DNA of 64,000 bases from Candidatus Bathyarchaeia archaeon (lineage in GTDB: Archaea; Thermoproteota; Bathyarchaeia; Bathyarchaeales; Bathycorpusculaceae). Under the pieces are notes generated by a model, which did no database searches, had not been told where the DNA came from, and saw only the letters and a list, made by a program, of their open reading frames with translations. The position numbers were made by a program, and so were the translations under genes. Shown here piece after piece: positions 26,135 to 60,182 of this stretch (position 1 is its first letter; every line of letters begins with the position of its first letter). The stretch lies in contig CP166960.1 of NCBI GenBank assembly GCA_041447175.1, forward strand, positions 1,380,519-1,444,518. Reading direction: 5' to 3'.

Positions 26135-27421
26135 ATGGTTCTGGTGAAAATCCGCGAAATCTTAGACGGTAACTGCACCGACAAACCGGTGTCTGTGCGG
26201 GGCTGGGTTTACCGTAAACGCCAAGGAAAAGAACTCATATTCATAGTAATCCGAGACTCAACCGGAGTCATACAATGCACTGTGAAAAAAGTGAACGCCG
26301 CCGCATGGGCAGAAGCCGAAAAACTAACCATCGAATCCGCCCTCACACTGGACGGCACAGCAAAACCTGACTCCCGCGCACCTGGAGGCTATGAAATAGC
26401 CGCCGAAGCAGTCGCCATAATTGGGCTGGCGGAAGTTTTCCCCATAGCCAAAGACAAAAGCGAAGAATTCATCCGTGACATGAGGCACCTGTGGCTACGC
26501 AGCCGTAAAATGAGTTTGGTCATGAAAGTCCGCGCCAAAGTTTTGGAATACGCACGAGAATACTTCCAGAAAACGGATTTCACAGAGGTTTCTCCGCCCA
26601 TGTTCATTTCCGCCGCGGTGGAAGGCGGCTCCACCCTGTTCGGATTAAAATATTTTGACCAGAACCTGTATTTGACCCAGAGCAGCCAGCTGTATCTGGA
26701 AATTCTCATTTACAGTTTAGAGCAGGTTTACTGTATTGCACCTTCGTTCCGCGCTGAAAAAAGCCGCACCATACGGCACCTAACCGAGTACTGGCACATG
26801 GAAGCCGAATGGCCCTACGCAGACATGAACGACCTCATGAAATTCGAAGAAGACCTCATGGAACACATCTGCAAACGCGTCGCAGAGAACTGTCAAAAAG
26901 AATTCGCTGAACTGGGCGCCGACATCAACAAGCTTGCCCAAGTGAAAACGCCGTTCCCAAGGATAACCTACGCGGAAGCAATAGAGAGGCTGCAGGCGAA
27001 GAATTCGGCGTTGAAGTGGGGCGACGACTTGGGTTATGAAGATGAAAAGGTGCTTGCGGAGGAGTTTGGTAAGCCATTCTTTGTTTATGATTACCCCAAG
27101 GTGATTAAGGCATTTTACTGCAAGACTTACAGTGACCGCCCAGACGTTGCCCTGTCAGTAGACATGATGGTGCCGCGCATCGGCGAAATCAGCACAGGCG
27201 GACAACGCGAAGAACAAAAAGACGCCCTTATTGAACGCATGAAAGAGCAGGGGTTAAATCCTGAGGATTATGAGTGGTACCTTGACTTGCGCCGCTACGG
27301 CACGGTGCCGCACGCAGGTTTTGGTATGGGGGTGGAGCGCCTGCTGGTTTGGATGCTTGACCTTGACAACATAATTGATGCTATTCCCTTCCCTCGGACT
27401 ACACGCAGATTCTACCCATAA
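26135..27421 (+). CDS. asnS: asparaginyl-tRNA synthetase (archaeal AsnRS-type class II enzyme)
   Basis: 428 residues: N-terminal OB-fold anticodon domain (VSVRGWVYRKRQGKELIFIVIRD), class II motif 2 (FRAEKSRTIRHLTEYWHMEAEW) and motif 3 (GFGMGVERLLVWML). The SxxRTxRHL form of motif 2 and the length suit archaeal AsnRS; an AspRS-like enzyme is the alternative. The region just past its stop holds repeat element A. Confidence 0.9.
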   Translation: MVLVKIREILDGNCTDKPVSVRGWVYRKRQGKELIFIVIRDSTGVIQCTVKKVNAAAWAEAEKLTIESALTLDGTAKPDSRAPGGYEIAAEAVAIIGLAEVFPIAKDKSEEFIRDMRHLWLRSRKMSLVMKVRAKVLEYAREYFQKTDFTEVSPPMFISAAVEGGSTLFGLKYFDQNLYLTQSSQLYLEILIYSLEQVYCIAPSFRAEKSRTIRHLTEYWHMEAEWPYADMNDLMKFEEDLMEHICKRVAENCQKEFAELGADINKLAQVKTPFPRITYAEAIERLQAKNSALKWGDDLGYEDEKVLAEEFGKPFFVYDYPKVIKAFYCKTYSDRPDVALSVDMMVPRIGEISTGGQREEQKDALIERMKEQGLNPEDYEWYLDLRRYGTVPHAGFGMGVERLLVWMLDLDNIIDAIPFPRTTRRFYP

Positions 27422-27433
27422 AGAAGAGGACAA

Positions 27434-27548
27434 GTTGGGTTTGCTGAGGCTCATGTTACTAGAAAGGAGAATAGGAGAAAGAATAAAACGCAATGACCCT
27501 TAAGCCATCGTGGTCATTTCTTAATCCTCGAGCCCATTCAGCCCCAAC
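27434..27548. repeat. structured element, copy A
   Basis: Arms GTTGGG...CTGAGGCTC and GAGCCCATTCAGCCCCAAC pair. An AGGAGAATAGGAGAAAG purine tract follows the 5' arm. The inner hairpin AATGACC (27492-27498) pairs with GGTCATT (27512-27518) around a loop holding AAGCCATCG. Lies just after asnS. Confidence 0.65.
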
Positions 27549-27638
27549 TCACCATCTGCCTAATTTTAGGTAAAGCAGAAAATGCGAAATTGATATTTAA
27601 AATTTTAGCTACCATTTAAGACCAATCAGGAGTTAAAT

Positions 27639-27724
27639 AAAAACGGGCAGCCGTGAAGCTCCACTTAACGGGTTTAAACTAAGTCAAAAGAGAAAAAACC
27701 GACTGCCACCATGTCGCCGTTTTT
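27639..27724. repeat. long inverted repeat AAAAACGG ... CCGTTTTT
   Basis: An 8-bp perfect outer stem (27639-27646 with 27717-27724) plus an inner GCAG/CTGC match enclose about 70 bases. It has the same overall scale as the structured elements around it but a different sequence. Confidence 0.4.
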
Positions 27725-27752
27725 GAACTCTTCAAACCATCAGGATAGACAG

Positions 27753-27879
27753 GAGGGCTGAGTTTGCCGAGGCTCCGTGTAAACTGTAAAGGAGAAAAGA
27801 GGAAGAATTAGCGTAAAGACCTGAAGCCATCAAGTCTGCATTCTTCATCCTTAAAGCCCTTTCAGCCTCAACCCCCCTC
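27753..27879. repeat. structured element, copy B
   Basis: Arms GAGGG...TTTGCCGAGGCT and AAGCCCTTTCAGCCTCAACC..CCCTC. The inner hairpin is long: GAAGAAT pairs with ATTCTTC, and AGAC pairs with GTCT, around a loop with GAAGCCATCA. It differs in stem sequence from copy A while pairing is kept. Confidence 0.6.
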
Positions 27880-27900
27880 TGAAGCCATATTGCTTCAGAG
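27877..27900. terminator. perfect 9-bp hairpin, possible terminator or processing site
   Basis: CTCTGAAGC (27877-27885) and GCTTCAGAG (27892-27900) form a perfect stem with a 6-base loop. There is no T run beside it on either strand, so a terminator role is only a guess. It abuts copy B. Confidence 0.35.
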
Positions 27901-28117
27901 ATGTAAAACAGAATACATAAAATGCGTATTAACCGATTTAGCATAAACTCTTCAAGTTATCGCAAATTAAACGGGCAAATCATGACTGTTAAAAGAACCA
28001 ATAAAACACTAAATATTAAAAATACAAAAGGCTAAACGCAAAGGACAAAGGGAAAAGCACTATACAGTAATCCTCTCGAACACCAAACTCGCCAGAAATA
28101 AATAGAAATTAGAAAAA

Positions 28118-28207
28118 CGGGTCTGTTGGTCTCCGGACTGAAATTGATAGTGAAAAAAAGGAACCAACAATCAAGTTGTCAATAAATTTCAAAGCCCGCT
28201 CAGCCCG
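28118..28207. repeat. structured element, copy C
   Basis: The shortest and most divergent copy: CGGGTCTGTTGGTCTCCGG as left arm and AAAGCCCGCTCAGCCCG as right arm; the inner hairpin is CAAC (28165-28168) with GTTG (28175-28178). It ends about 50 bp past the stop of the propeller gene at 28259-30742. Confidence 0.55.
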
Positions 28208-28258
28208 AGCGTTCTTAGGGTTTTCCCATAAAAAAGGAAAGGGGAGGTATGTGTTAGG

Positions 28259-30742
28259 TTATTTGCGTCTTCGGAGTAATACAGCGGCTACAGCTACAAT
28301 TATGATGATAACCACGGAGGCTACCACCACATAGGTCGTTGTTGCATCTCCACCAACCGATGGCTGAACCGCCATGCTCGGCGAAGGAGAAGTTGCCTGC
28401 GATGTTGACGTTGTAGGTGTTCCAACAATTGGCGATGCTTCATCAGACACCACAAAGAATGTTCCTGCCTGGCTGCTGAAGTAGGATTTGGAGCCTTCGA
28501 ATGTTGCGATTACCGTGTAGAGTCCTGAAACTGGCGGAGTCCATTCTGTTGCGTAGTTACCCAATATGTCACTTGTTAAGGTTCCGATTTCGTGTGTATT
28601 GCAGTTGGAGTCAATAGCGACTAGATGGAGTTCTACGCCTCGTGCGTTTTCTGGTTTTTGATGCTGCATGTACAAGTACTCCATCCATTGGGTCATGTAT
28701 TCGTCGGAGATCGCTGGGGTGCCGCATGCACCTGGGGACTGGTCAAGTATTGTTCCCTGAATCAAAACGGGTGCTCCTCGTGGAACGGCAGTTGCGGGTG
28801 CTGTAATGGTGGTTTCCGTTTGGCCTCTTCCTATGCAGTATATTTTGCAGTCGTAGTTGTTGAAGGCGGTAAGGTAACCGTCGGCTATTGCGGGGGTTTG
28901 CCACCAGCCAGTAAGGTTCCAGATGCCGGTTCCGTGGTAGGCGTCAACACAGTAGATTCTCCCACCTCGCCACATGGGAGAGTTGGGACTGTGTTCGCCA
29001 GTGGCAGCGTAAACTTTTCCGTCAGCTATGGCGAAAGTTCCACTTCCCAAGGGGTATGTACCGTAGGGTGTTTCAAACCCGGCGCTTCCAGTGTCGAAGT
29101 CGAAGAGGTGGTCGCCAGTTATGGCACTGTAAGCATGGAGCTTTCCGTCGTAAGCAACAGAGTAGAGAGTATCATAGGCAATGAGTGGATTGGAGGCTCC
29201 AAGACCGACCGTGCTTGAAGTGTAAATGCCCCAAGCATTGTCATAGGGCAATGTTGGACCCCACACCAAATTGCCAGTTTCTATGCTGTAACCGTAGAAC
29301 TCCATGGTTTCTTGTCTGAAAAAGACAAAAACGCCGTTGCTGACAGGGACTATGAAGTAGGTTGGTCTAAAAGCAGCGTTGCTTGTGATGTCGGTTGTCC
29401 ATTTCTGGGCGCCAGTCGTAGCGTCGTATCCTATAGCTTTGATTGTTGTGTCATCAGCTTGAGAGGCGGCAATAATAACGCCTTCGCCTATACAGGCTAT
29501 GCTTTGGGTTCCAGGCACATCTGGGACGGTAACGTTCCACTGTACGCCTGCGAGCCAATCCTGCGTTGTGCCAATTGGCGGTCGCCATTGCCATGCGCTG
29601 GTTCCAACTGTTCCTGGATACATGTATGGTGCGTAGCTTGAATTCCACATGGCTATCCAATTGTTTTGTCCGTCGAGTACGTAGACCAGCAGGTCTCCAC
29701 TCGGCGACATTGTTACGCGACCTCTCGATGCATTAGCCAATGTCAAAAGCAACTCACCAGTATAGGGATCAAACATGTTGTATGATGCACTAGTTTGCCA
29801 CAGGTATGGAAGGGCGCCGTGTTGGTTGGGGGATTCGTAGTCGTAGATTTGGCCTACATCTATGGTTATGTTCTGCCACCAGAGTTGGCCCCCAGTTCGC
29901 AGGTCTAAGCAGATAGTTCCGCCCGCGTTTGCTCGGTTGGACAGGGGTAGAGTGCAGAAGAGTTTACCTTGCATGATTACGGGGGGTCCATATTTGCTTT
30001 CGTAGGATAAGCCTGTGTAGTATGAAACGTCACCATTACCTAGGTCGCCTCCGACGATACCGCCCCAAGCAAGCTCTTTGGTCCACACTACGTGTGCGGA
30101 TTCAGGAGCTGTTGTGTAGGGATTAAAAGCGCCTGAAGAAGTGCAGCCAGTTCCATACGTTAGTCGAACGCCAAACCAGTTTCCACCAATTGACGCCCAT
30201 TCTCTATTTTCTCCATATATTGGACGGTTCCAGTATTCTGTGTCTGCGGGTGACGGATTGGGTGTCCACCCTTCAATTGGTTCGGCTTGTACAACTAACG
30301 AGACTTCGGGGCTTGTAGTTGGGCGGTAGTAATTTCCATCCACTGTTTGTTGTCCGGGGAATATAAACTGGAAAACATACGTTCCAACCTCTGTAGGTGT
30401 GTAGTCAAAGTATGCTGATGCAACTGCGTCAGAATTAAAGGGTCCCTTAGTTTCTGTTTCGCCGCTGGGAGTATTGATGGTAACGGTTAGCTGTTCCCAT
30501 GCAGTCTGGGAGCCGTCAGGATTGAGCGGGGGCAACATGTCTAGCCACATGACAGCTATAGCAGGTTGACCAACGCCTATGGGGCTGGGGGCTACACTAA
30601 GAAAAGCATAGACGTCATGGTCCGTGGCATTTGCACTTGGTAGGGTAACCATCAAAGCGGAAATAATTAGTGTCAGAATCAGAGCCATCACAGACAGCTT
30701 TCTTTTTAGACTCCCAGTATGTTTAATAGATTTTTTAGACAT
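28259..30742 (-). CDS. secreted PQQ-like beta-propeller surface protein (propeller 1)
   Basis: 827 residues: signal peptide (about 1-39, ending ANA), an Ig-like domain (about 42-152) with the family phrase APSPIGVGQPAIAVMW, the bridging motif EYWNRPIYGENREW, a PQQ-like propeller (about 190-640) with tryptophan-docking repeats (YDATTGAQKW, YSAITGDHLFDF), a second Ig-like domain (to about 775) containing MTQWMEYLYMQ, a Ser/Pro linker, a membrane helix and RRRK. Placed outside the cell, anchored at its C-terminus. PQQ binding is not shown; family members mostly lack known enzyme activity. SD GGAGGGATG before ATG 30742. Confidence 0.9.
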   Translation of the reverse strand: MSKKSIKHTGSLKRKLSVMALILTLIISALMVTLPSANATDHDVYAFLSVAPSPIGVGQPAIAVMWLDMLPPLNPDGSQTAWEQLTVTINTPSGETETKGPFNSDAVASAYFDYTPTEVGTYVFQFIFPGQQTVDGNYYRPTTSPEVSLVVQAEPIEGWTPNPSPADTEYWNRPIYGENREWASIGGNWFGVRLTYGTGCTSSGAFNPYTTAPESAHVVWTKELAWGGIVGGDLGNGDVSYYTGLSYESKYGPPVIMQGKLFCTLPLSNRANAGGTICLDLRTGGQLWWQNITIDVGQIYDYESPNQHGALPYLWQTSASYNMFDPYTGELLLTLANASRGRVTMSPSGDLLVYVLDGQNNWIAMWNSSYAPYMYPGTVGTSAWQWRPPIGTTQDWLAGVQWNVTVPDVPGTQSIACIGEGVIIAASQADDTTIKAIGYDATTGAQKWTTDITSNAAFRPTYFIVPVSNGVFVFFRQETMEFYGYSIETGNLVWGPTLPYDNAWGIYTSSTVGLGASNPLIAYDTLYSVAYDGKLHAYSAITGDHLFDFDTGSAGFETPYGTYPLGSGTFAIADGKVYAATGEHSPNSPMWRGGRIYCVDAYHGTGIWNLTGWWQTPAIADGYLTAFNNYDCKIYCIGRGQTETTITAPATAVPRGAPVLIQGTILDQSPGACGTPAISDEYMTQWMEYLYMQHQKPENARGVELHLVAIDSNCNTHEIGTLTSDILGNYATEWTPPVSGLYTVIATFEGSKSYFSSQAGTFFVVSDEASPIVGTPTTSTSQATSPSPSMAVQPSVGGDATTTYVVVASVVIIIIVAVAAVLLRRRK

Positions 30743-30790
30743 TTTCTTTCATCCCTCCAAAATGCTTGAATAAAAGTTGTATCTTTAGAT

Positions 30791-30821
30791 ACTTAATACA
30801 TTGTTGGTTGTATCAAAACCC
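30791..30821 (-). promoter_or_regulatory. operator-like motif upstream of propeller 1 (degenerate copy)
   Basis: Read on the plus strand: ACTTAA (30791-30796), four bases, TTGTTGGT (to 30808), nine bases, ACCC (30818-30821). It matches the shared pattern TGTCGGT-N9-ACCG with two changes, and begins 48 bp before the start codon, as in the neighbouring copies. Confidence 0.5.
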
Positions 30822-30976
30822 ACAAAAAGGAAAACGGGTTTCCGATCATGAAAACACGAGACGGATAGAGACGTGTGGCTACAAAAGTTTCATATGGAAC
30901 TGCGATAAGGAGGCCAACTCAAACTATGCAAAGTCTTTGGGTCCAACCTAAAAAATGGTCGTCTTGAAGTGAAAAA

Positions 30977-31067
30977 GGTTTGCTGGGGCTCTGGGACGGG
31001 ATTCGCAGGAGAGAAAACGAAAACCAACGAGCAAGTTGGAATCAGCTTCCCTAAAGCCCACTCAGCC
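30977..31067. repeat. structured element, copy D
   Basis: Left arm GGTTTGCTGGGGCTCTGGG, purine tract AGGAGAGAAAACG, inner hairpin CCAAC (31024-31028) with GTTGG (31035-31039) around GAGCAA, right arm AAAGCCCACTCAGCC. Ends about 65 bp past the propeller 2 stop codon. Confidence 0.65.
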
Positions 31068-31132
31068 GCTCATTTGCTCTTCAATGTTTTTCTGTTCTAA
31101 TAAAAAAAGGAAATTGGGTGAATTCAGCCCCA

Positions 31133-33757
31133 TTATTTGCGTCTTCTTAGCACAGTTACTGCTGCAACGGCTATGACTACGATAACAGCAACGCTTATGA
31201 CCAGGTAAGTAGTTGTTGGCGTGGCGCTGGTAGATGGTTGGGGAACTTCACGTGGAGAAGGCAAAACAGGCTGCGATGGTACCGGTGTGGGTGTAAATGG
31301 TGTGACTGACTGAGTTGGTGGCGGGGTTGATGTTGCAACGGGTTTTGCGGCGGGTTCTTCTGAGACGGCTATTGCGGTTTCTGTCTGCGAAGGCCAATAG
31401 GAGTTTGAGCCTGCGAATGAAGCGGTAACGGTGTATTCTCCTGGAACTGGTGGAGTGAATGCCACTTTGAAGAATCCGCTCGCATCGCTTGTAGTTCTGC
31501 CAACTTCGTAGGAGTTGTTGTTGGGGTCAAGCACTGATATCACAACTTCAACGCCGGTTGCATTTGTTGGACGAGGGAATTGGTTATACACATACCGCAT
31601 CCATTCGCTCATGCTTGCGTCAGATACTGCAGGGACACCATCTGGAAAACGAGCGGTCAGTGCATATTCTTCTGTGCCAGGCGAAATATCGGTGACTCTA
31701 CCTTCCACCAGCACGCTATCGCCTTGTACAGAAGTTTTTGGTGACGCACTAACCACAGTGGCAGTTGGACCTTTGCCGATAGCGTATATGCGGTTGTCGT
31801 GGCTGTCCAAAGTTGCAATTATGCTGTCTCCGATGAGAGGCGTATATGAGTAGCTAGCGACGTTCATGTATTGAGACCAGATTTCCTTTCCAGTCTCTAG
31901 GTCAAGGCAGAAGAAGGTGGTGCCGCGGGGTTGCGGATTGTTGGGGGAGTGCTCGCCGTATCCACCGTAGAGTTTGCCGTCAACAACAAGTGCTGCGGGG
32001 GCACGTAAAGGAAAGTTTATACCAACGGGGTTTGTATGGAAGGGGTCAGTGGCGTTGTATGTCCATTGAAGTTCTCCTGTGGCAACGTCGTATGAGTAAA
32101 TTGTTCCGCTAGTGGTGCCGCATAAATATCTGCCGTCCGCGATAATTGCCATTGCCTCTTGGTAAACTTCAAGATAGTTTTGTGGTTCAGTTGGCCCCCA
32201 AATGTATTCGCCTGTTTCCGTGCTAAAGCCCCAATGTTGTCGGGTATCTACGTACACCACTGTGAAAACTTGGTCGTCTAAGCTCACTTCACTGAAACGC
32301 GCGGAATTGGTGCGGGCACCCTCAATCCACTCTGCTGGTGCAGCCCAAGTTTTTGTATACAGAAGCGTGCCTTCCTCTCCCGGCTTCAAGCTTAAAGCCC
32401 ACGAATAAACTCCCGTGCCGTTCACTAGTCCACCGAATACTTTGTCGCCAAGCGCAAATGCCTGAGCACTTCCTGGCAGGTTGTTGGGTATTGTTATGTT
32501 CCATTCGTAGCCGCCGTGCCGTGGTGCATCCCAAGAACAGTTAAAGATTTGTCCATGTGGTCGCCAGCTACCAGCATCACTCACAACTCTACTTGAATTC
32601 CAAAGCGTCATCCAGCCCTCTGCAGTGTTGACAGTGAATCGGTATATTTCGCCCATTGGACCGTAGATGTTTGTGCCCGAAGGAACGTTCGTCATCTCGT
32701 AGACCCACCTCCCAGTGGTAGGGTCGTAAGCGTCCCATGTAGAGCCTGTTGTTGACCATAAGTACCCAAAAACGCCTTGATAATTATACGAGTTCCAGTT
32801 GAATGCTTGACCAAACGCTAATCTACTGTTATTCCAGTTTTCAACCCATAGTTCTTCTCCAGTATGCAAATCAACAGCGACAACATCTTGCTCAATGTTA
32901 GTGCCACCTCGACTCTCAAATCTGTTGTAGTAAAGTACGCCTGCGATAATCAAAGAGTTTTTAAATTTGTCTTCGTATGCGCCTCCAGCCTCGTACTGAT
33001 ATGGTTCACTCATACCACCTGCAAGACCTCCGCCCACAAGTGTTTTTGTCCAAAGCAAATGAGCACTTTCGGGAGCATCTAAATTGTAGGGCGCATAAGT
33101 GCTAACGAAATAGGCTCTGGGCTCCAGCCAGTTACCTGCGATTGGATTCCATTCCCAAAGCTGGGAATTTATTGGTCTTGACCAGTACTCAGTTGGGGGC
33201 GATAAACCAGGCCAGTATGTAATTGGGTCGCTTTGGACTACAAGTGCCAGAATCTCACTGTCACTAGCTAACATTGTTGTACCTTCAGATGTGCCTGCTG
33301 AAGTTGAAGGCATAGTTTGCTCTGGAAAGTGCGTCTGCAAGTAGTAGATGCCAACCATTGTAGGAGTATAAACACTGGCTGATCCACCTGTGGAGTCAGT
33401 TTTGAATGGCCCCAGCGTTTCAACAGTGTTATCAGGTGCTGTAACTGTAACTGTTAGTCCTGCCCATCCAGATGTTGCAGTTCCTACTTCATGGGTTATA
33501 CCAAAATGAATCGCAACTTGGTTGTTGACGCTTACGGGGTTAGGATTAGCACCTATGAAAGCGTAGGTTTTTCTTGTCCCTGAAACTTGTGAAGACACAG
33601 TTGGCAAAGCAAACGAGGAAAGTAATAGCGTGCAAATCACAAGTATGGCAAGGGTAGCAGTTTTATTGGTTGATGCGTTGTTCCTTGGTCTCAGCATAGC
33701 ATACGTGCCCGCTTTTTTTCGCAGATTTACCAGTTTGTCGCAAAGTGTTCTAAACAT
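31133..33757 (-). CDS. secreted PQQ-like beta-propeller surface protein (propeller 2)
   Basis: 874 residues with the same plan as propeller 1: long-n-region signal peptide (about 1-56), Ig-like domain with GANPNPVSVNQVAIHF-type opening, motif TEYWSRPINSQLWEW, a PQQ-like propeller with repeats such as YDVATGELQWTY and LDLETGKEIWSQ, a second Ig-like domain (GEYTVTASFAGSNSYWPSQ), a long Pro/Thr linker, membrane helix and RRRK. Start ATG 33757 follows CGGAG; an inner ATG at 33697 would shorten the n-region. Sequence clearly diverged from propeller 1, so not a recent copy. Confidence 0.9.
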   Translation of the reverse strand: MFRTLCDKLVNLRKKAGTYAMLRPRNNASTNKTATLAILVICTLLLSSFALPTVSSQVSGTRKTYAFIGANPNPVSVNNQVAIHFGITHEVGTATSGWAGLTVTVTAPDNTVETLGPFKTDSTGGSASVYTPTMVGIYYLQTHFPEQTMPSTSAGTSEGTTMLASDSEILALVVQSDPITYWPGLSPPTEYWSRPINSQLWEWNPIAGNWLEPRAYFVSTYAPYNLDAPESAHLLWTKTLVGGGLAGGMSEPYQYEAGGAYEDKFKNSLIIAGVLYYNRFESRGGTNIEQDVVAVDLHTGEELWVENWNNSRLAFGQAFNWNSYNYQGVFGYLWSTTGSTWDAYDPTTGRWVYEMTNVPSGTNIYGPMGEIYRFTVNTAEGWMTLWNSSRVVSDAGSWRPHGQIFNCSWDAPRHGGYEWNITIPNNLPGSAQAFALGDKVFGGLVNGTGVYSWALSLKPGEEGTLLYTKTWAAPAEWIEGARTNSARFSEVSLDDQVFTVVYVDTRQHWGFSTETGEYIWGPTEPQNYLEVYQEAMAIIADGRYLCGTTSGTIYSYDVATGELQWTYNATDPFHTNPVGINFPLRAPAALVVDGKLYGGYGEHSPNNPQPRGTTFFCLDLETGKEIWSQYMNVASYSYTPLIGDSIIATLDSHDNRIYAIGKGPTATVVSASPKTSVQGDSVLVEGRVTDISPGTEEYALTARFPDGVPAVSDASMSEWMRYVYNQFPRPTNATGVEVVISVLDPNNNSYEVGRTTSDASGFFKVAFTPPVPGEYTVTASFAGSNSYWPSQTETAIAVSEEPAAKPVATSTPPPTQSVTPFTPTPVPSQPVLPSPREVPQPSTSATPTTTYLVISVAVIVVIAVAAVTVLRRRK

Positions 33758-33804
33758 TTCATTTTCTCCGATTAAATTGTGAAAGCTGAGTTGCAGTTGT
33801 TCGT

Positions 33805-33843
33805 ACTTAACATCTTGTCGGTCTCGCCAAAACCGCTAAAAAA
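33805..33843 (-). promoter_or_regulatory. promoter with operator-like inverted repeat upstream of propeller 2
   Basis: Plus-strand reading: ACTTAA at 33805, TGTCGGT (33816-33822), nine bases, ACCG (33832-33835), then the complement of a TTTTTTAGC TATA-like box (about 33835-33843). In the coding direction the order is T-rich TATA-like box, operator, TTAAGT, placing the site where a repressor could block initiation. Confidence 0.6.
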
Positions 33844-33920
33844 TGTAGCACAACATGGATACATTGCAAAATATGAATTACTATTTCAACTCAAAAATAC
33901 GGCATCTACACAGGTCAAAG

Positions 33921-34733
33921 TTAAACATAATGTTTCAACGAAAACCTCTCCGACTGCAGCCACTTATTTTTAAAATATTCACTGCTCAAAGTAACTAAGC
34001 TTTCACAGTTCGACCATAATTGAGAACCACGCGCGATATCAGACAGCACATCAACAGCTATACAGAGTCTAACATTGTCATAAATCACCACTGTAGTCTT
34101 AACATTGCCCGGCAGTGTCCGAAGTTCGAAACGCTCAGGTTTTTCCAACAATGCCTTAACTACCCATTTTGGAATTGAGCTGGGGTTTGGTCTTTCGGTT
34201 ACAACCTGAATACGCACATTATTCTCTAAAGCATGCTTTATCAAATCTTCTTGAATAGAAAAACTTTGGCAAAAACGTTTGAAAGTTACCAAGAGATTAA
34301 TAATCACACGAGAACCATCAAGTGCGTTCTGCATTTTCCTAAAACAATCAGTTCCAGAAACAACGGTGAAATAAGGTTTGTCTGCGGGTTTTAAAAGTTG
34401 CAGGTCAGTTTGATTAAATTTTTTGATTATACGTTTAGTGCGCAGTCGAACCTCGTCAAATTCTTTGTTCTTCTGGTTCACCATTACTTCGAGGGCGTTT
34501 TCAACAGGAACGGCGCTAAAGAGAGTAGGAGAAGTCAGAGTTGTTTCGACTAAACCCATTTCTTGTAGGCGCGCAGCTACGCGATAAACTTCCTGCCTGT
34601 GAACTGATGAAAATCTTGCAATTGCTTCTGCCCCCGACGAGCCTATTTGAAGAAGTGCAAGGTAAACCCTTGCTTGCCTTTCAGTGAGCCCCAACCAAGT
34701 TAAAGTTTCTATATCTTCATGTATAATTTCCAT
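33921..34733 (-). CDS. TrmB-family transcriptional regulator (TrmB 1)
   Basis: 270 residues: N-terminal winged helix (TLTWLGLTERQARVYLALLQIG ... SVHRQEVYRVAARLQEMGLVE, about 8-65), a helical linker and a C-terminal effector-binding domain with HLWSNC-like end sequence. TrmB proteins regulate sugar uptake and metabolism in other archaea. ATG 34733 follows GGGGAGAG; the longer frame to 34772 is unlikely. Its own upstream region carries the same inverted repeat found before the propeller genes, suggesting autoregulation and control of the locus. Confidence 0.88.
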   Translation of the reverse strand: MEIIHEDIETLTWLGLTERQARVYLALLQIGSSGAEAIARFSSVHRQEVYRVAARLQEMGLVETTLTSPTLFSAVPVENALEVMVNQKNKEFDEVRLRTKRIIKKFNQTDLQLLKPADKPYFTVVSGTDCFRKMQNALDGSRVIINLLVTFKRFCQSFSIQEDLIKHALENNVRIQVVTERPNPSSIPKWVVKALLEKPERFELRTLPGNVKTTVVIYDNVRLCIAVDVLSDIARGSQLWSNCESLVTLSSEYFKNKWLQSERFSLKHYV

Positions 34734-34793
34734 TACTTCTCTCCCCATTTGCTTGCCAGAGCGTAACTTCACCGACCAAAACTTATGAAACTT

Positions 34794-34815
34794 GGGCGGT
34801 CATGACAAGACCGAC
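34794..34815. promoter_or_regulatory. operator-like inverted repeat upstream of TrmB 1
   Basis: GGGCGGT (34794-34800), nine bases, ACCGAC (34810-34815); the core CGGTC-N7-GACCG is a perfect inverted repeat. Same half-sites and the same nine-base spacing as before the propeller genes. Confidence 0.6.
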
Positions 34816-34904
34816 ACGAACTTGAGAAGTTTAAGAAAAACCAAATCTATTTCTTTCCTATTCAGAAGGATTTTCAGAATAAGCTAAAAAAAGAAAATGA
34901 ATCA

Positions 34905-35021
34905 TTGGAAAAGGGTTTGCTGGGGCTTCGGAACGGAAAGGAGGAGAGGGGGAAAGAGTTCAACCCAATGACAATATAGTCATCGTGTTACAATTTCCAA
35001 AGCCCACACAGCCCCTTCCAA
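34905..35021. repeat. structured element, copy E
   Basis: The best outer stem of the family: TTGGAA (34905-34910) with TTCCAA (35016-35021), then GGG/CCC, CTG/CAG and GGGCTT/AAGCCC. The inner hairpin ATGAC (34969-34973) pairs with GTCAT (34979-34983). Ends 54 bp past the propeller 3 stop. Confidence 0.7.
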
Positions 35022-35075
35022 GCGGCTTCTTGTCCGTTGTCTTTAAAAAAGAAAAAGGGGTTGGTTTGTTTTTGG

Positions 35076-37772
35076 TTACTTACGTTTTGTCAACAGAATT
35101 GCTGCAGCTATAACGGCGACAATGACGACTACAGTGATGACGATGTATATTGTTGTTGTCGAGTCGGTGCTTTCTTGGGAAGTTGAGGGCACATCGGTGA
35201 CTGCAGGAGCAGCTGGCGTATTAGCCGCTGCTGGTGCTGTTGGAGCATTTGTAGGTACAGAAGACGTTGTGGGTATTGGCGAAGCTTCACTTATCACGGG
35301 GGTGGCTTCTGGAGTTGCAGAAGGCATGGGAGATGGCGATACCGGAGAGGCAGATGCAGCAGTGTTCATAGTTCGGGCCTCGCCAAAGCAACGTAGATTC
35401 CAATCGTTAGCGCCCACGTAGAGATTGCCAGTGTACAAAGAGGGTGCTGAACGCATCTGGCTTGAGCCAAAATCTGTATTTACTGAAATTTTGTCTCCGG
35501 TTAATGCATCAAGTACATACAGGGCGCCTAGCTCGTTTACAGTGTAAATTCTGCCGTATGAGTATGCCAAGCCTTGAGCCAAGTTTTCACGTGATAGCCA
35601 AGTTGTCCAGATAACACTGCCATTTTTAGCGTTAAGGCAGGTTATGCCATAGAAGTCGTTGAAGTACAGTTTTCCGTAGCTGTAAAGCATAGCGTTTATT
35701 TGGAGTACACCACCGAGTTGTGAGGGTGTGCCTGGGTTGTATTGTCCGTCATAAGTCCAGAGTATTTCACCGGTTGCTGCATCTATGCCGTAATTCAATC
35801 TGAATGCGTTTCGCAAGAACACCATACCATCTGCATAGGTTGGTGCTGTACAAAGCCAGTATCCTGCGCCTGCAGTTGCATTCAATACATACGGGATAGC
35901 TATCTTCCAGACGAGGTTGCCGTTGAGGTCAAGTTTATAGAGGGTACCATCAGGACGTTGAGTACACGAAGGAACAAAGACTGCATTGTCAGCTATGGTT
36001 GCCGCAGCAATTATAGGTCCACCTGTTTGGTATTTCCAAGATATTGCCCCTGTAGTCATATCCAAACAGTACAGGTTCCCATCAAGCGCACCTACATACA
36101 CTTTGTTGCCGTAAGCAATTGGTGAGGCTCGTACATCACTCGCTGAGCTAAGACCACGGGGGTCCGCGATTGGGTTGATTTTTACGCCACCTACATCTGC
36201 TTGCCACAGCTTGTTGCCTGTAGCGGCATCTAAACAGTATACGTTGCCATCATCAGAGCCTGTGAAGACTTTTCCGTTTGCTACCGCTACTGAAGACTTC
36301 ATTGGAGAACCAATTGGATATTGCCACTTTGCATTGCCTGTTTCAGAGTCCACTGCATATATGGTGCCAGCCATTGAGGCAAAGTACGCGGTGCCATCAA
36401 CTACAGCTGCCGAAGATTGAATTGAACTGTCAGCAGTGAATTTCCATTTGAGAGCTAAATCTGTTGGACCTGCACCTTCACCAGTGTGTGCAGTATCGCT
36501 GAGGAGCATGGACCAGTCCTTTGTTTCGCTGCTAATGCACCATACTTCGTCAAGGGTTGAGCTGCTGTACTCCCAAATACCTGGTTTCTGGGGCGACCCT
36601 GGTATTGGAATAATGTACAAGTTACCGTAAGCAATGCATTCATGAATGCTTGGTCCACCGCCTGTCTCGATTGGAGCTGACCATATGAGTTCTCCAGTGA
36701 GAGCATCATAGCAGTTATATTCGGAGTGGGCATATTCACCGGTTTCAAAGTCACGATATTGGTATTCACCCATCAGAGAATACACTTTACCTCCCCCGAC
36801 GGTAAGAAGACCTGAATATCCGACGCCGGGTCCTTTTGCTTTCCAGACTAATTCGCCAGTTGAAGCGTTTATGGCGTAAAGATACGTGTCCTGATTATGT
36901 TCAAATACTAGCCCATAAGCAGAAGCTGCTGCGGAAGCCCATTGACCATACCAAGTGCCAGGATTATAAGTCCATTCAAGATTTCCTGTGTTTGCATCCC
37001 AAGCGTACATGTTGTTGTCAAGGCCACCGAAAATTACTTTTCCGTCACAGTAGGTTCCTCGATACCAGAATTGAGATGTAGCTGGGGTAACCCAAAGAGT
37101 GGTACCAGTTTTTGCATCAATGCACTCCACAAAGTTATTCATTGTTCCAACGAAAAGTTTTCCGTCAGCATATGGAAGTCTTTCTCCTTCAATACCATAG
37201 TAAGCGTCATTTGTGCGGTTCCACGCTAACGTCGGCGGTTGCGAGGGGTCAGGAAGGCTCCAGCCAAATTTTGAGCAAATCAGCATTTTCAGGTCAGGCG
37301 CATAGTAATTCCAAGTTAAACCTGCGGGTCCTGTCCATACGGTTGAGCCGTCAGCTATTCTTATGCAATCGGATCCTTTCATCATGTAGGTGTTGTCGAT
37401 TTTTGCTAAGGAACCAGTTCCAGCAATGTCCCAGACAATATCTCCGTTGGCGCCATTGAGAGCGTACGTCCTCGAGGCGGATTGCACGAACACTAAACCG
37501 CCAAAAGCTATGGGGGCACCAGTAACGCCAGGTATCTTTGCCTTCCATGCAATGTTAAACGAGCTAGGTGCTGGTCCAGCACTTGAATATGAAAGAGAAT
37601 TATCAGAAGAAGCCATTGTCCATTCATATTGAAGCATGTCATTAGGAACGGCAGATGCGGTTTGGGCGGCTGCAGTTGGTGTAGAACTGGGGAAAACCAC
37701 GAAAACAGAGGAAAGCAGAAGCAACGCTAAGGCAAGCAGTCCAATTTTTTTTGTTATTGATTCTTTGTTCAT
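35076..37772 (-). CDS. secreted double PQQ-like beta-propeller surface protein (propeller 3)
   Basis: 898 residues: signal peptide (about 1-36), no N-terminal Ig-like domain, then two PQQ-like propeller blocks (about 60-440 and 465-800) joined by LLSDTAHTGEGAGPTDLALKW. Docking repeats are plain: YAVDSETGNAKWQY, YCLDAATGNKLWQA, YCLDMTTGAISWKY. The second Ig-like domain of propellers 1, 2, 4 and 5 is missing; a very long Pro/Ala/Thr linker leads to the anchor helix and TKRK. ATG 37772 is the likely start, since the frame upstream to 37910 lacks signal-peptide character. Closest in plan to propeller 6. Confidence 0.9.
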   Translation of the reverse strand: MNKESITKKIGLLALALLLLSSVFVVFPSSTPTAAAQTASAVPNDMLQYEWTMASSDNSLSYSSAGPAPSSFNIAWKAKIPGVTGAPIAFGGLVFVQSASRTYALNGANGDIVWDIAGTGSLAKIDNTYMMKGSDCIRIADGSTVWTGPAGLTWNYYAPDLKMLICSKFGWSLPDPSQPPTLAWNRTNDAYYGIEGERLPYADGKLFVGTMNNFVECIDAKTGTTLWVTPATSQFWYRGTYCDGKVIFGGLDNNMYAWDANTGNLEWTYNPGTWYGQWASAAASAYGLVFEHNQDTYLYAINASTGELVWKAKGPGVGYSGLLTVGGGKVYSLMGEYQYRDFETGEYAHSEYNCYDALTGELIWSAPIETGGGPSIHECIAYGNLYIIPIPGSPQKPGIWEYSSSTLDEVWCISSETKDWSMLLSDTAHTGEGAGPTDLALKWKFTADSSIQSSAAVVDGTAYFASMAGTIYAVDSETGNAKWQYPIGSPMKSSVAVANGKVFTGSDDGNVYCLDAATGNKLWQADVGGVKINPIADPRGLSSASDVRASPIAYGNKVYVGALDGNLYCLDMTTGAISWKYQTGGPIIAAATIADNAVFVPSCTQRPDGTLYKLDLNGNLVWKIAIPYVLNATAGAGYWLCTAPTYADGMVFLRNAFRLNYGIDAATGEILWTYDGQYNPGTPSQLGGVLQINAMLYSYGKLYFNDFYGITCLNAKNGSVIWTTWLSRENLAQGLAYSYGRIYTVNELGALYVLDALTGDKISVNTDFGSSQMRSAPSLYTGNLYVGANDWNLRCFGEARTMNTAASASPVSPSPMPSATPEATPVISEASPIPTTSSVPTNAPTAPAAANTPAAPAVTDVPSTSQESTDSTTTIYIVITVVVIVAVIAAAILLTKRK

Positions 37773-37835
37773 TTTTTCACCGTGTTTTTCTGTTTGTCTC
37801 CAATTTTTGTGAAAAACAACATACCTTGATATGCT

Positions 37836-37873
37836 ACTTAACGTCTTGTCGGTCTTGCAAAGACCTAAAAATG
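37836..37873 (-). promoter_or_regulatory. promoter with operator-like inverted repeat upstream of propeller 3
   Basis: Plus-strand reading: ACTTAA (37836-37841), TGTCGGT (37847-37853), nine bases, ACCT (37863-37866), overlapping the perfect inverted repeat GGTCTT-GCA-AAGACC (37851-37865). On the coding strand a TTTTTAGG box precedes it and TTAAGT follows, as for propeller 2. Confidence 0.65.
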
Positions 37874-38189
37874 GCAGAAAAAAGGAGCCCCCAACAAAAA
37901 GATTAAACAAACACCGATTACGCGGAAGAATTCGGCTAATTTACCCTTCTTCAGCAAAGTTTAGCTTGATACCGAGAAAAACTGTGGCGTCATGAATCGA
38001 ACAGCCGTTTTGAAAGCACCGATTTTTAGGCTCAGGCATAGGCTGCATAGGCGATAGGTGGATAGTTCTCGAAGACTTCAACACCTCATTGAGAAATACT
38101 TCAAACTCGAAATTATCATTTAACGCCGAAGGCAAATCTACAGTAATTGGGCTTTAAACCGTATGCACGCAAAAAATGCGAAGCGAAAA

Positions 38190-38294
38190 GAGGGTTTACT
38201 GGAGCTCTGGAACTGAACATAGGAGAGAAAGAATTCAACTCAATGACCAACATAGCCATCGCGTCACAATCCCCCAAAGCCCATACAGCCCCTC
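38190..38294. repeat. structured element, copy F
   Basis: GAGGG (38190-38194) pairs with the terminal CCCTC; left arm GGGTTTACTGGAGCTCTGG, purine tract AGGAGAGAAAG, inner TGAC/GTCA hairpin around a loop with ATAGCCATCG, right arm AAAGCCCATACAGCCCC. Ends 53 bp past the propeller 4 stop. Confidence 0.65.
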
Positions 38295-38347
38295 ATTTCA
38301 CTTTTTAGCGTTCTGCCTTTTGAAAAAAGGGAAAATGGTGTTTGTGG

Positions 38348-40966
38348 TCATCTTTTTTTACGCAGAAACAGTGCTGCTGCGGCTGCAACTATGATTACGA
38401 CTGCTGCACCGATGGCGAGGTAGGTCGTGGTTGGCATTGGGCTGGTAGGTTGGGGAGCTTCGCTGGGTGAAGGCGATACAGACTGCATGGGTGTAGGCGT
38501 TGGTGCTGTTGGAGTTGCGGTTTCGGTGGCGGTTGGTGTGGTGATGGGGGCGGGGGCGGCTGTTTCTGAAACTATGAATGCGGTTCCTGCTTTGCTGCTG
38601 TAGTATGAACTGGAGCCTTCAAAAGTAGCGGTTACTTTGTAGAGTCCTGGAACTGGCGGCGTCCATGAGGTTGCATAGTTTCCTAGTATGTCGCTGGTTA
38701 CGTTGCCTAAGTCCTGTGTGTTACCGTTGGAGTCGATAGCAGTCAGATGTACGGAAACACCGGTTGCGTCAGTTGGTTTTGGCTTCTGCATGTAAAGGTA
38801 CTCCATCCAAGCACTCATGCAATCGTCAGAAACTGCGGGTGTGCCAGCTGCAGGAACACCTATGCATGTTTTTCCGGGCGATTGGTCAGTGATTGTTCCT
38901 TGTATAAGGACTGGTTGACCAAAAGAGGCAGCTATAGTCGGTGCTGAAACTGTGGTGGCTGTTTGACCTTTGCCGTAGCAGTAGATTTGGCTGTCATAGT
39001 TGTTATATGCAACTACGTATCCGTCGGCTACTGCTGAAGCTGCATACCAACCTGATATGTTCCACAGCATTTTTCCTGTAAATGCGTCAAGTACATACAT
39101 TGCTCCGCCGCGCCACATTGGGGAATCAGGACTGTGGTCATTGGTGGTCGCAAATACCTTGTTGTCTGCGACTGTGACGCCTCCGTAGAAGGGATAGTTT
39201 CCGTATGGTGTTTCAAACCCTGAGGGCACCGAGAAAGCCCAGTCTAAGTTTCCTGTTTCTTGGTCATAGCAGTAAATGCCATCGTATCCGGTTGAATAGA
39301 TTTTGCCGTATGCAACAGTTGGGTTCGGTGGTCCTGCGCCGAGGTAGCTTTGGCTATAAACGCCCCATGCGTTTGATTTTGGCTGTGTTGTCCATAGAAG
39401 GTCTCCAGTTAAAGCGTTGAAGCCCATGGTCTCCATTGTTTCTTCTTCGAACCAAGTGAATACGCCGTCAATTATTGGTCCTACGTTAACGCCTGCATTG
39501 TAGGCGGTATAAGAGGTGATGTTTTTAGCCCAAATTTCTTGTCCGGTTGTATCGTCATAAGCAACAAACATGACAACAGGCGGGTTTATGTTAGCGATGA
39601 GTTCACATGCCAAGATTACACCAGAACCTACTCGCGAAATTGCAAGGTTACCTGAAGACCCCTTAGGTGTTGCAGCAATAGACACATTCCATTGAATACC
39701 ATTTCGCCAATCCAAGGTCTGCCCTAAGAAGCGGTCGGGGCGCCACTGCCATGCATTGGTTCCTTCTGTTCCAGGCGTGGGGATAGCTTTGCTTGAGTTC
39801 CACATTGCCAGCCAATTGTTCACAGGGTCAAGTATATAATCAAGTACATCGCCAACGTCGGATGTTACTATTTTTCCACCGCCAGAAACGTTATTGAAGC
39901 TTAGCATCAGTGTGCCTGAAGCTCCGTCAAACATTTGCCAAGTATTCATTGGACCAGCGGTATTCCAAAGGTAAAGCGGCATGACGCCGTGTTGGTTTGG
40001 CGATTCATAGTCATATATTTGACCAAAGGAAATGGTTATGTTGTTTGTCCACAATATTTCGCCAGTACGGAGGTCTTGGCAGACACATCCACCTGATTGT
40101 CTATTGTTGTTTAAAGGCAAATTGTAGTAAAGCTGTCCATCCGCAATTACAGGAGGCAAAAACCGTTCTTCGTAAGACAAACCGGTATAGTAAGACCGGT
40201 CACCGTATTGCCCGCCAACTAAGCCGCCAGAAGATAGTTGCGTTGTCCAAACTATATGTCCAGTGTCGGGGGCAGTAGTGAAGGGATTGAATGGCCCAGT
40301 GGCGTTGTATGCAAACCATGCGCTGTCGGGAGTTCCCAACCAATTCCCAGAAATCGTGTACCAGTTACGGTTTTCTCCGTTAATTGGTCTGCTCCAATAG
40401 TCGTCTGGTCCGGGAACGGGGACATCCGAAATACCGCCTATTTGTTGTTCTTGCACAGTTAGCGTTACTTCAGCGCTATCACTGGGTAGGTAGTGGCTGT
40501 CGATTAAGGTGTTTGTTGTTGTGTATCCCACAACATGTTGCCCAGGATAGTGGAACTGGAACGTGTACTTGCCAATTACTGTCGGCACATATTGCAGATA
40601 GTAGCTTGCTATTGGATCGGAAGAATAGGGTCCTAAAATTTCTTGGGAACCATCAGGTGCGGTAACAGTTACCGAGTAACCTTCGAACAGGATCACTTGC
40701 GAATTGCCTGTTACGCTTCCGGTCGATGCATTGTAGAACAACGGGATATTTGCTAGCCACATAACGACAGTAGCGGGTTGATTAACGCCTACTGGGTTAG
40801 GAGCGACATTCAGAAAAGCAAAGGTGGGAGTATCGGGTCCCTGCGCTGCGACAGTACCAGGAACACTTATTGCAAGCAACATACTAATAACGAAAATCAA
40901 AGCAAACGCAGATTTCACGTTGATAGCGTTCTGCCTCAAGTTTTTTCTTTCCAAGTTTGTTGACAT
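38348..40966 (-). CDS. secreted PQQ-like beta-propeller surface protein (propeller 4)
   Basis: 872 residues, closest to propeller 1: signal peptide (about 1-42, ending TVAAQ), Ig-like domain (FAFLNVAPNPVGVNQPATVV), motif DDYWSRPINGENRNW, propeller with YDDTTGQEIWAK and YDQETGNLDWAF repeats, second Ig-like domain (GLYKVTATFEGSSSYYSSK) with the insertion MSAWMEYLYMQKPKPTDATGV, Pro/Thr linker, anchor helix and RKKR. Many NxS/NxT sequons. Start ATG 40966. Confidence 0.9.
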   Translation of the reverse strand: MSTNLERKNLRQNAINVKSAFALIFVISMLLAISVPGTVAAQGPDTPTFAFLNVAPNPVGVNQPATVVMWLANIPLFYNASTGSVTGNSQVILFEGYSVTVTAPDGSQEILGPYSSDPIASYYLQYVPTVIGKYTFQFHYPGQHVVGYTTTNTLIDSHYLPSDSAEVTLTVQEQQIGGISDVPVPGPDDYWSRPINGENRNWYTISGNWLGTPDSAWFAYNATGPFNPFTTAPDTGHIVWTTQLSSGGLVGGQYGDRSYYTGLSYEERFLPPVIADGQLYYNLPLNNNRQSGGCVCQDLRTGEILWTNNITISFGQIYDYESPNQHGVMPLYLWNTAGPMNTWQMFDGASGTLMLSFNNVSGGGKIVTSDVGDVLDYILDPVNNWLAMWNSSKAIPTPGTEGTNAWQWRPDRFLGQTLDWRNGIQWNVSIAATPKGSSGNLAISRVGSGVILACELIANINPPVVMFVAYDDTTGQEIWAKNITSYTAYNAGVNVGPIIDGVFTWFEEETMETMGFNALTGDLLWTTQPKSNAWGVYSQSYLGAGPPNPTVAYGKIYSTGYDGIYCYDQETGNLDWAFSVPSGFETPYGNYPFYGGVTVADNKVFATTNDHSPDSPMWRGGAMYVLDAFTGKMLWNISGWYAASAVADGYVVAYNNYDSQIYCYGKGQTATTVSAPTIAASFGQPVLIQGTITDQSPGKTCIGVPAAGTPAVSDDCMSAWMEYLYMQKPKPTDATGVSVHLTAIDSNGNTQDLGNVTSDILGNYATSWTPPVPGLYKVTATFEGSSSYYSSKAGTAFIVSETAAPAPITTPTATETATPTAPTPTPMQSVSPSPSEAPQPTSPMPTTTYLAIGAAVVIIVAAAAALFLRKKR

Positions 40967-41014
40967 TTGTGTTCTCTCTCGTTTCTTATGGAAAAGACCA
41001 TACTTTCACGAAGG

Positions 41015-41047
41015 ACTTAACACTATGTCGGATTGATAATGACCGCC
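41015..41047 (-). promoter_or_regulatory. operator-like inverted repeat upstream of propeller 4
   Basis: Plus-strand reading: ACTTAA (41015-41020), TGTCGGA (41026-41032), nine bases, ACCGCC (41042-41047). Starts 48 bp before the start codon. One mismatch in the first half-site. Confidence 0.6.
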
Positions 41048-41137
41048 AAGAAAAGCCCGAAAAAAGAAAAACACCCAAAGCCTTGGGCTAAAACAGCATG
41101 CTTTCTTACCACAGTATCAGAGTTTTGATATCATGTG

Positions 41138-41935
41138 CTATCTGTGGAGGTCGAATTTTGACCACATGCAATTGAAATATGCTTGATTCACAGTGATCAT
41201 ACTGACACAATTTGACCACAAGTGAGCCCCGCGGAAATCGAAGGTCGGATTAATGCAAAGAGCAACTTCGGTGTCATCATAAATTGTCACCATGGTTGGG
41301 GCAGGGTCAGCCATGGTTCTAATTGTTAAACGTGAAGATTGCTTCTCTAAGGCGTCAAGCACCCATTTTGGGAAGGCGTCATTTTCTGGTTTCTCGGTTA
41401 ACACGTTGATGGCAACGCCCCGTTTTAACGCTGCTTTAATTGAACTCTCAAGAATGGAGAAGCCCAGACGGAATCGTTTCCAAGTAGTAACAAGGTTGAT
41501 ATGGGTATGAGCTGTTTCGGTTGCTCTTTTGAATTTGCCGTTGTGGTCTCCTCCGGAGATGATGCAGAAGTACTCATTGTCTCTGTGTATGTCAACCGGT
41601 AGGTCAGTACGATGGATTTCTTTGGCTAGTTTTCTTGCCCTTTCGCGAGTTAGGTTGAACTCCGTTAGTTTGCTGTTAAAGAGGAGTTTGATGGCTGTTT
41701 CTATTGGTACCGCACTGAACATAACGGGTGTGTTTATCTTTCGCTCCACTAAACCTATATCCTGAAGATTCAGGGCTACGCGGTAAATCTCTTGCCTATG
41801 AACCAATGTCGCTTTAGAAATTGCTTCAGCTTTAGAGGGACCTAACCGAAGAAGAGCAAGGTAAACCTTTGATTGCCTTTCAGTGAGACCTAACCGAGTT
41901 AAGGTTCCAACGTCTTCTTCCTTAATTGACAACAT
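41138..41935 (-). CDS. TrmB-family transcriptional regulator (TrmB 2)
   Basis: 265 residues, paralogue of TrmB 1: winged helix TLTRLGLTERQSKVYLALLRLG ... LVHRQEIYRVALNLQDIGLVE, linker, and effector domain ending GAHLWSNCVSMITVNQAYF. The recognition helix VHRQEVYRVA/VHRQEIYRVA is nearly identical to TrmB 1, so both may read the same operator. ATG 41935 follows GTGAG; a GTG at 41944 is in frame. Downstream of it lies propeller 4 in the same direction. Confidence 0.88.
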   Translation of the reverse strand: MLSIKEEDVGTLTRLGLTERQSKVYLALLRLGPSKAEAISKATLVHRQEIYRVALNLQDIGLVERKINTPVMFSAVPIETAIKLLFNSKLTEFNLTRERARKLAKEIHRTDLPVDIHRDNEYFCIISGGDHNGKFKRATETAHTHINLVTTWKRFRLGFSILESSIKAALKRGVAINVLTEKPENDAFPKWVLDALEKQSSRLTIRTMADPAPTMVTIYDDTEVALCINPTFDFRGAHLWSNCVSMITVNQAYFNCMWSKFDLHR

Positions 41936-41988
41936 ACTTCTCACGTTAGTTCAGCTTTTGACCAAGAGTTGAAATTTACCAAACGTTT

Positions 41989-42010
41989 AGTCGGTCTTAA
42001 CACAACCGAC
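41989..42010. promoter_or_regulatory. operator-like inverted repeat upstream of TrmB 2
   Basis: AGTCGGT (41989-41995), nine bases CTTAACACA, ACCGAC (42005-42010): a perfect 6-bp inverted repeat GTCGGT/ACCGAC, the strongest copy of the motif. Confidence 0.7.
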
Positions 42011-42106
42011 AATGGACAAAAGTACCATCCAAGTATCCTCTTTTCCACTTCATTTTTGCTCACTGATTTAATCACGTTTATAGTGAAAGAATGAATAAGA
42101 AATGTA

Positions 42107-42132
42107 GTGTAGGTAGGCAACCTACCTCGCAC
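42107..42132. promoter_or_regulatory. palindrome upstream of TrmB 3
   Basis: AGGTAGG (42111-42117), CAA, CCTACCT (42121-42127): a perfect 7-bp inverted repeat with GTG and CAC outside. It differs from the GTCGGT sites and lies about 55 bp before the TrmB 3 start, so it is probably the site of a different regulator, perhaps TrmB 3 itself. Confidence 0.55.
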
Positions 42133-42185
42133 TATTTACCATCCGAAGAAAATAAGTAGAGTAAGGTAGTATTGGAGAGAGAAAC

Positions 42186-43070: not shown

Positions 43071-43072
43071 AC

Positions 43073-59554: not shown

Positions 59555-60004
59555 TCAGTCCGCGTTAGATGATAGTTTTTTAGACAACAATGTCTGAACC
59601 AAACTCAGCAGGACCACTGTAGATAAAGATACAAAAAAGGAAATAAAAGGAACTCGACTAATAGCAAAATAAGGTTTACTGTTCAACAAAACAGGCGCAC
59701 ATTCAAAAACTAAAAATTCAAAAAGATAAGCAAAGGTAAACAACACTGAAGCAAAAAGTACACCAAAAAGAAAAAAACGAACCTTCTCAAAAGGTGAAAA
59801 CTCTTTTAAGCCCCAAACCGCCCCAAACACACAAACAGCCACCACAAAAAAACCAGTCAAACCCGCAACAACAAAAAAATCAGAAGCTTCCATGAAAACA
59901 ACCGAAGGCAAAACATTAAAAAAAACACCCAAGAGACCTCCACTTAAAACAAATTTCCATCTGTTACCTTGTAACATAACTTTAATTTTTGAACCAACAC
60001 TCAT
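59555..60004 (-). CDS. four-helix membrane protein of unknown function
   Basis: 149 residues, four hydrophobic helices (about 16-38, 43-66, 72-100, 116-140). No family recognised. ATG 60004 follows AGGAG by nine bases. Its leader directly adjoins element copy G, so the element could act in the 5' untranslated region of this gene as well as 3' of propeller 6. Confidence 0.65.
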   Translation of the reverse strand: MSVGSKIKVMLQGNRWKFVLSGGLLGVFFNVLPSVVFMEASDFFVVAGLTGFFVVAVCVFGAVWGLKEFSPFEKVRFFLFGVLFASVLFTFAYLFEFLVFECAPVLLNSKPYFAISRVPFISFFVSLSTVVLLSLVQTLLSKKLSSNAD

Positions 60005-60022
60005 GTATTTCAACTCCTAAGG

Positions 60023-60120: not shown

Positions 60121-60182
60121 TTTTTTGCCAATGCTTCTCCTAACAAAAAAAGGAAAAAGGAAAGTTGTTGTTTTGCGGCTGT

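Follow-up and report, generated by a model that had tools for sequence, protein, structure and literature searches.

The stretch of DNA that was analysed (the window) comprises 64,000 nucleotides of the genome of a Candidatus Bathyarchaeia archaeon (GenBank assembly GCA_041447175.1, contig CP166960.1, positions 1,380,519 to 1,444,518 of the forward strand). Within it, a spacer at positions 27422-28258 is bounded by two genes: (i) an asnS-like gene encoding a class II tRNA synthetase of the D/K/N type (26135-27421, + strand; Pfam PF00152), for which orthologues were found and which served as a syntenic anchor, and (ii) a gene encoding a PQQ-propeller surface protein (28259-30742, - strand; Pfam PF13360) with a C-terminal transmembrane anchor and an RRRK tail. 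A first-pass annotation had described this spacer as gene-free, with three copies of one element (A, B and C) in a row and no propeller genes between them, and these statements were borne out. No ORF of at least 100 aa is present in 27422-28258, and those of at least 40 aa are all short, one of them (27732-27944) overlapping copy B. In tblastn searches with proteins of the window and of relatives, no propeller debris was detected between A and B or between B and C; the best match (E 0.028) overlaps C.

Copy A (27434-27549; drawn on the + strand, although the RNA could come from the - strand) begins 12 nt after the asnS stop codon, copy B occupies positions 27757-27873 (+) and copy C positions 28116-28210 (+), 48 nt from the stop codon of the adjacent propeller gene. 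All were recovered by covariance models built without them or, in one case, without B. Model R1, composed of nine copies with A, B and C all excluded, gave genome-wide scores of 43.0 bits (E 8e-9) for A, 33.3 bits (E 6e-6) for C and a weak 22.8 bits (E 0.008) for B, while B reached 37.6 bits (E 4e-8 when the window was searched) with the broader model R2, whose training set included A and C and left out B. According to these matches three copies are present, of which B and C have diverged. The stem of A is paired throughout and is extended by GUUGGG/CCCAAC. The best match of B is A (74% identity), and the best matches of A are a copy of genome G019 and B. Both carry a GGAGA motif (27474-27478 in A and 27791-27795 in B, + strand), which in A reads as Shine-Dalgarno-like on the + strand and as anti-Shine-Dalgarno on the - strand; in C this motif is lost. 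The T-tract usual between gene and element is absent from the sequence at both A and B. Copy C is an ordinary copy, the usual 3' element of gene 28259-30742, while A and B have no such gene and are orphans of one subtype.

Two further features had been reported in this spacer. The perfect 9-bp hairpin (CTCTGAAGC-CATATT-GCTTCAGAG; 27877-27900), located directly after B, is real and unusual: the 64-kb window contains three hairpins of this kind, and 0.03 would be expected in a shuffled spacer. The second long inverted repeat (27639-27724) fared less well; its 8-nt outer ends (AAAAACGG/CCGTTTTT) do match, but the segment folds no better than shuffled sequences (z 0.05 and -0.66), which leaves its structure unsupported.

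The element belongs to a family whose members are about 100 nt long. With the broader model (E below 1e-5), 38 copies were counted in this genome (2.73 Mb, one contig), and a relative in the same genus has 49. Four more copies of the window, all drawn on the + strand, lie behind other propeller genes: 30973-31073 (gene 31133-33757), 34910-35019 (gene 35076-37910), 38189-38296 (gene 38348-40966) and 60022-60122 (gene 60183-63188). The last of these is 8 nt away from the start of the opposite-strand gene 59555-60013, so that it may overlap the leader or promoter of that gene. A blind scan of 84,980 species, one genome per species, with a pattern made of the two ends of the element returned 111 stretches; the 80 matches listed all come from genomes named Bathyarchaeota, MCG-1 or Bathyarchaeum, apart from one MAG named Crenarchaeota, and about one chance match is expected from base counts. 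The same pattern found no match in viral contigs. At curated Rfam thresholds the window gave no match, and a comparison of four copies gave no credible weak match either; no tRNA was detected in the window, and a tRNA-like reading of the element was rejected. No description of the element was found in the open literature. Judged from these comparisons, the element probably represents a previously unlisted, Bathyarchaeia-specific family of structured non-coding sequences.

Alignment of the intergenic repeats of the window revealed a common layout, composed of GGGTTTGCTGGGGCT, a purine-rich stretch with GGAGAGA, a hairpin and AGCCCACTCAGCCCC. The ends form a closing stem, in which GGG-UUU-GCUGGGGCU pairs with AGCCC-NNN-CAGCCCC. 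In 90 copies from multiple genera this stem pairs in 91.8% of cells, and 66 cells are changed on both sides, compared with 28 in shuffles (0 of 500 as high); the underlying alignment had been made with a model that contains the stem and therefore favours it, although slid controls were clearly lower. The stem varies in its outer and its inner part and is nearly invariant in the middle. The middle hairpin can be read in most of the copies inspected and is too variable to be aligned. The covariation supports the view that the element is a structured RNA.

The element is tied to one gene family. It lies 24-88 nt behind the stop codon of a propeller gene and, as drawn, on the opposite strand. At 77 of the 95 model hits an opposite-strand gene ends at a distance of 24-77 nt, and its product has a C-terminal segment that is hydrophobic and is followed by a basic tail; the 18 exceptions comprise 14 orphans or contig edges and four weak hits regarded as false. 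Pattern hits, collected regardless of their neighbours, gave a similar picture, about 60 of 76 being located behind such a gene (62 were counted, two of them doubtful). The products are secreted PQQ-propeller proteins anchored in the membrane at the C-terminus: PF13360 was matched by each of the 54 full-length products scanned, and these have a common N-terminal and C-terminal layout. The proteins can be aligned over their full length, with about 25% identity between genera, which means that the element has persisted while the proteins diverged greatly. Genomes rich in full-length family members are also rich in elements (G000, G001, G003, G005, G006, G007, G019 and G036), and most genomes without full-length members have no elements. 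In the genome analysed, 29 of 44 family genes have an element and 15 have none (one of the latter, at locus L220, has a borderline match at the expected position), while genome G017 contains family genes and no elements; the tie is thus strong from element to gene and looser from gene to element. Within the propeller cluster of the window, the member at 46932-49607 has no element behind it and a leader with GGAGAGA, and it is accompanied by 14 more such genes genome-wide. At one locus of G006 (L101, 14932-15034) the element seemingly lies at the 5' and not the 3' end of a propeller gene.

Copies that travel with their genes, and the many genes lacking an element, would also be expected if an old 3' flank, functionless now, had simply been copied by gene duplication. 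We consider such passive hitch-hiking highly improbable, as the stem covaries and the loop is conserved across genera whose propeller proteins are only about 25% identical, and the orphans A and B retain their stems.

The element has a conserved loop, GGAGAGA...AUGA, which resembles the sequences around the translation starts of the propeller genes and of neighbouring TrmB genes. The motif GGAGA was counted in 111 of the 135 non-redundant copies, compared with 13.7 expected, at a near-fixed place and often followed by ATGA; the copies are related, and such counts are therefore not independent. Within this genome, element loops matched the leaders of 43 family genes with a mean local score of 8.9, compared with 6.6 for the leaders of 41 other genes in the window (p 6e-10), and GGAGA is present in 30 of the 43 family leaders and in six of the 41 others. 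The two best of these 41 precede genes of TrmB-type regulators within the propeller cluster (33921-34772, -, and 42186-43070, +), whose start regions are like the element loop. Complementarity to family start regions thus exceeded that to other genes, with the caveats that start codons were chosen by a score favouring Shine-Dalgarno sequences and that the controls were few and came from one window; the loop match may reflect just a common strong Shine-Dalgarno sequence. Raw duplex energies are driven by base composition and were left out of account.

Narrower versions of this relationship were rejected. Elements showed no preference for the leader of their own gene (7.9 versus 8.4, p 0.96), which argues against pairing in cis and against co-variation in cis. 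Lineage-level co-evolution of loop and leader was likewise unsupported (overall p 0.41), only B. tardum standing out (14.6 within the lineage versus 8-10). A small protein encoded on the drawn strand was also discarded: GGAGA...ATG is start-like, but the frames that follow run for 1-79 codons at random and are shifted by indels.

Another motif of the cluster, GACCGACAAGATGTTAAGTA (about 20 bp), was found at 30790-30820, 33804-33834, 37835-37865 and 41977-42007 and, inverted, at 34798-34829, with 0-6 mismatches. It is located upstream of the propeller and TrmB genes of the cluster and is not clearly present upstream of the 38 other family genes. TrmB/Lrp-like regulators are encoded at three places in the window (33921-34772, 41138-41944 and 42186-43070), and on this arrangement the motif may be an operator for the TrmB regulators of the cluster.

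As to which strand is transcribed, the RNAalifold consensus has an energy of -8.5 kcal/mol when the gene strand is folded, compared with -1.95 for the opposite strand (shuffles 0), A-C cells, which become G-U on the gene strand, are more numerous than G-U cells (43 versus 29), and B folds with a z of -4.17 on the gene strand and -0.81 on the other; the per-copy z (-2.48 versus -2.21, p 0.05) hardly separates the two. Taken together, the sequence comparisons lean to the gene strand without settling the matter. On that strand a U-rich tract lies between the stop codon and the element, with at least six T in 75% of copies. The drawn strand has its own T-rich stretch after the stem (T about 0.5 at +3 to +10), and there, in every lineage, the loop has the form of a well-formed start region. 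Both observations would suit a small RNA convergent to the gene, with its SD-AUG-like loop acting as a decoy that titrates a factor or 30S subunits. We regard this reading as unlikely. Besides the folding and G-U evidence, T-runs follow the stem only slightly more often than they occur at its other side, TATA-like sequences are not enriched upstream on the drawn strand (7% versus 4%), so that an own promoter at a fixed distance was rejected, and at A, 12 nt behind asnS, such a promoter would fall in the asnS coding region. The hairpin with T-rich tracts adjoining it on both strands, together with its constant distance behind the stop codon, could instead belong to a terminator or insulator that stops or processes convergent transcripts and protects mRNA ends, the loop being only a protein-binding site. 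That possibility, which we hold to be unlikely, would leave unexplained the restriction to one gene family, the likeness to start regions and the orphan copies.

The reading that we favour, though tentatively and with rather less than even confidence, is that of a putative 3'-end RNA tied to the propeller family, whose loop is antisense to the ribosome-binding regions of the family. The element would be transcribed on the gene strand, either as a read-through 3' UTR or as an RNA released from the 3' UTR. Its single-stranded loop UCUCUCCUAA, held open between two helices, would be antisense to the common ribosome-binding region and could dampen the translation of many family members in trans, which may keep the family balanced or allow few members to be made at once. 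Copy C would serve gene 28259, and A and B, whose stems still pair, may have kept an activity in trans. Masking of a ribosome-binding site by an archaeal sRNA has a precedent in sRNA162 of Methanosarcina mazei (PMC3510493). Among the observations that speak against the proposal, the T-tract before the element is a main weakness, as it may end the mRNA ahead of it, and the 15 of 44 family genes here, like those of G017, have no detectable element even though their leaders carry the same motif. In an extended form, each 3' element would be antisense to the starts of the family, so that any member expressed represses the others, with the orphans as free-standing regulators; we consider such a family-wide network distinctly unlikely.

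The surroundings of asnS differ among the relatives. In G005, asnS is followed by an element and one propeller gene, and in G006 the order is asnS-element-propeller-element-propeller-TrmB. In G003, only 22 bp separate asnS from the orthologue of the gene at 43073, and in G002 and G004 asnS is followed by other genes without an element. None of these relatives keeps an empty spacer with unrelated sequence in place of the elements. This synteny indicates that the asnS site is a place at which element-propeller units came or went within one genus. The region from asnS to the flavin-reductase-like gene at 43073 (27422-43072) forms a hot spot, with one or more propeller units in G005, in G006 and in the genome analysed.

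The first-pass annotation had considered two cases: if the elements mark the ends of propeller cassettes, the spacer might be the scar of lost cassettes, and if they are RNA genes, it might be an sRNA cluster. For the second case, structure and covariation support an RNA, and the elements may be RNA genes. The 3' ends of propeller genes are indeed marked (77 of 95 model hits), but cassettes of the integron type are excluded: the core boxes of an attC site (RYYYAAC...GTTRRRY) were found at the ends of 0 of 135 copies on either strand, and a search for the integron integrase (TIGR02249) returned only sub-threshold matches to tyrosine recombinases, which were obtained in all 14 control genomes too. 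A scar in the recombination sense does not fit either, since excision between repeats takes one element with each gene and would leave a single copy, not three in a row. As for lost genes, two of the three copies are geneless, whether their genes were lost or never existed; no propeller debris was found at A, B or the other orphan copies tested. The element and propeller gene directly after asnS in G005 and G006 make gene loss beside A or B plausible, while the 74% identity of A and B makes local duplication of the element as good an account; the flanks that follow the two copies are not significantly homologous by themselves (29 versus 25.5 +/- 3.8). Overall, the earlier interpretation is partly supported.

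A broader DNA-level explanation would treat the element as a mobile or recombination repeat that spreads with or shuffles propeller genes, with A-B-C as its product. It can draw on the multi-copy, palindromic nature of the element, on a unit content of the asnS site that differs in every relative and on near-identical copies within G006, yet we judge it very unlikely: beyond the missing attC boxes, integrase above the cut-off and viral hits, the copies are seldom found away from the propeller family, and a covarying stem with a start-region loop suits an RNA better. As regards filled and empty sites at the element ends, the spacer of the relatives looks too divergent to offer empty sites at base resolution.

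Seven orphan elements, A and B counted, were identified in this genome. Several orphans, in this and in other genomes, are followed at 159-491 nt by a divergent gene for a TrmB-, Lrp- or ArsR-like regulator. Such regulators are also common next to propeller genes: a TrmB/Lrp-like regulator is the 5' neighbour in 32 of 67 cases, 24 of which are divergent, compared with 65 of 399 for the other ORFs in the loci of these propeller genes. The orphans beside regulators look like units minus the propeller gene only. A second neighbouring pair with no propeller gene between its copies, resembling A-B-C, occurs at L017 (936-1040 and 1501-1608; G000, 335691-336363).

Several known systems share features with the element. 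Like sRNA162 (PMC3510493), which has targets in cis and in trans, it would present a single-stranded stretch antisense to a ribosome-binding site; sRNA162 is one gene, whereas the element has dozens of copies, each behind a member of one paralogous family. With bacterial 3'-UTR-derived sRNAs it would have in common an RNA at the mRNA 3' end able to act on other mRNAs; it differs from them in being archaeal, multi-copy and preceded by a T-tract, and its targets would be its own gene family. Integron attC sites, including those of archaeal integrons (PMC9668308), are likewise imperfect palindromes of about 100 bp at gene 3' ends, with conserved ends and a variable middle, but none of the 135 copies has the R-box pair, no integron integrase reached the cut-off, and the units occur genome-wide. 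The expansion of PQQ-protein genes described in Bathy-6 genomes, with 46 genes in a closed genome and products thought to be extracellular (PMC11697101), apparently concerns the same gene family in related genomes; the words intergenic, repeat and non-coding gave no match in the text of that article, and the 3' element seems not to be described there. REP- and MITE-type palindromes are also multi-copy, palindromic and intergenic, and in contrast to them the element has a fixed distance and orientation to one family, covariation and a start-region-like loop.

Bathyarchaeia form an abundant and almost uncultured group, in which the PQQ-propeller family counts among the largest; an extracellular action on lignin has been proposed for it (PMC11697101). 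The spacer between asnS and the propeller gene 28259-30742 is composed of two orphans beside one normal copy of a new 3' element, whose function as an RNA is putative, and it offers a place in this genome to study the element apart from its gene. A 3' element that is absent from Rfam and copies the start signal of the family is a testable lead on the control of dozens of surface genes.
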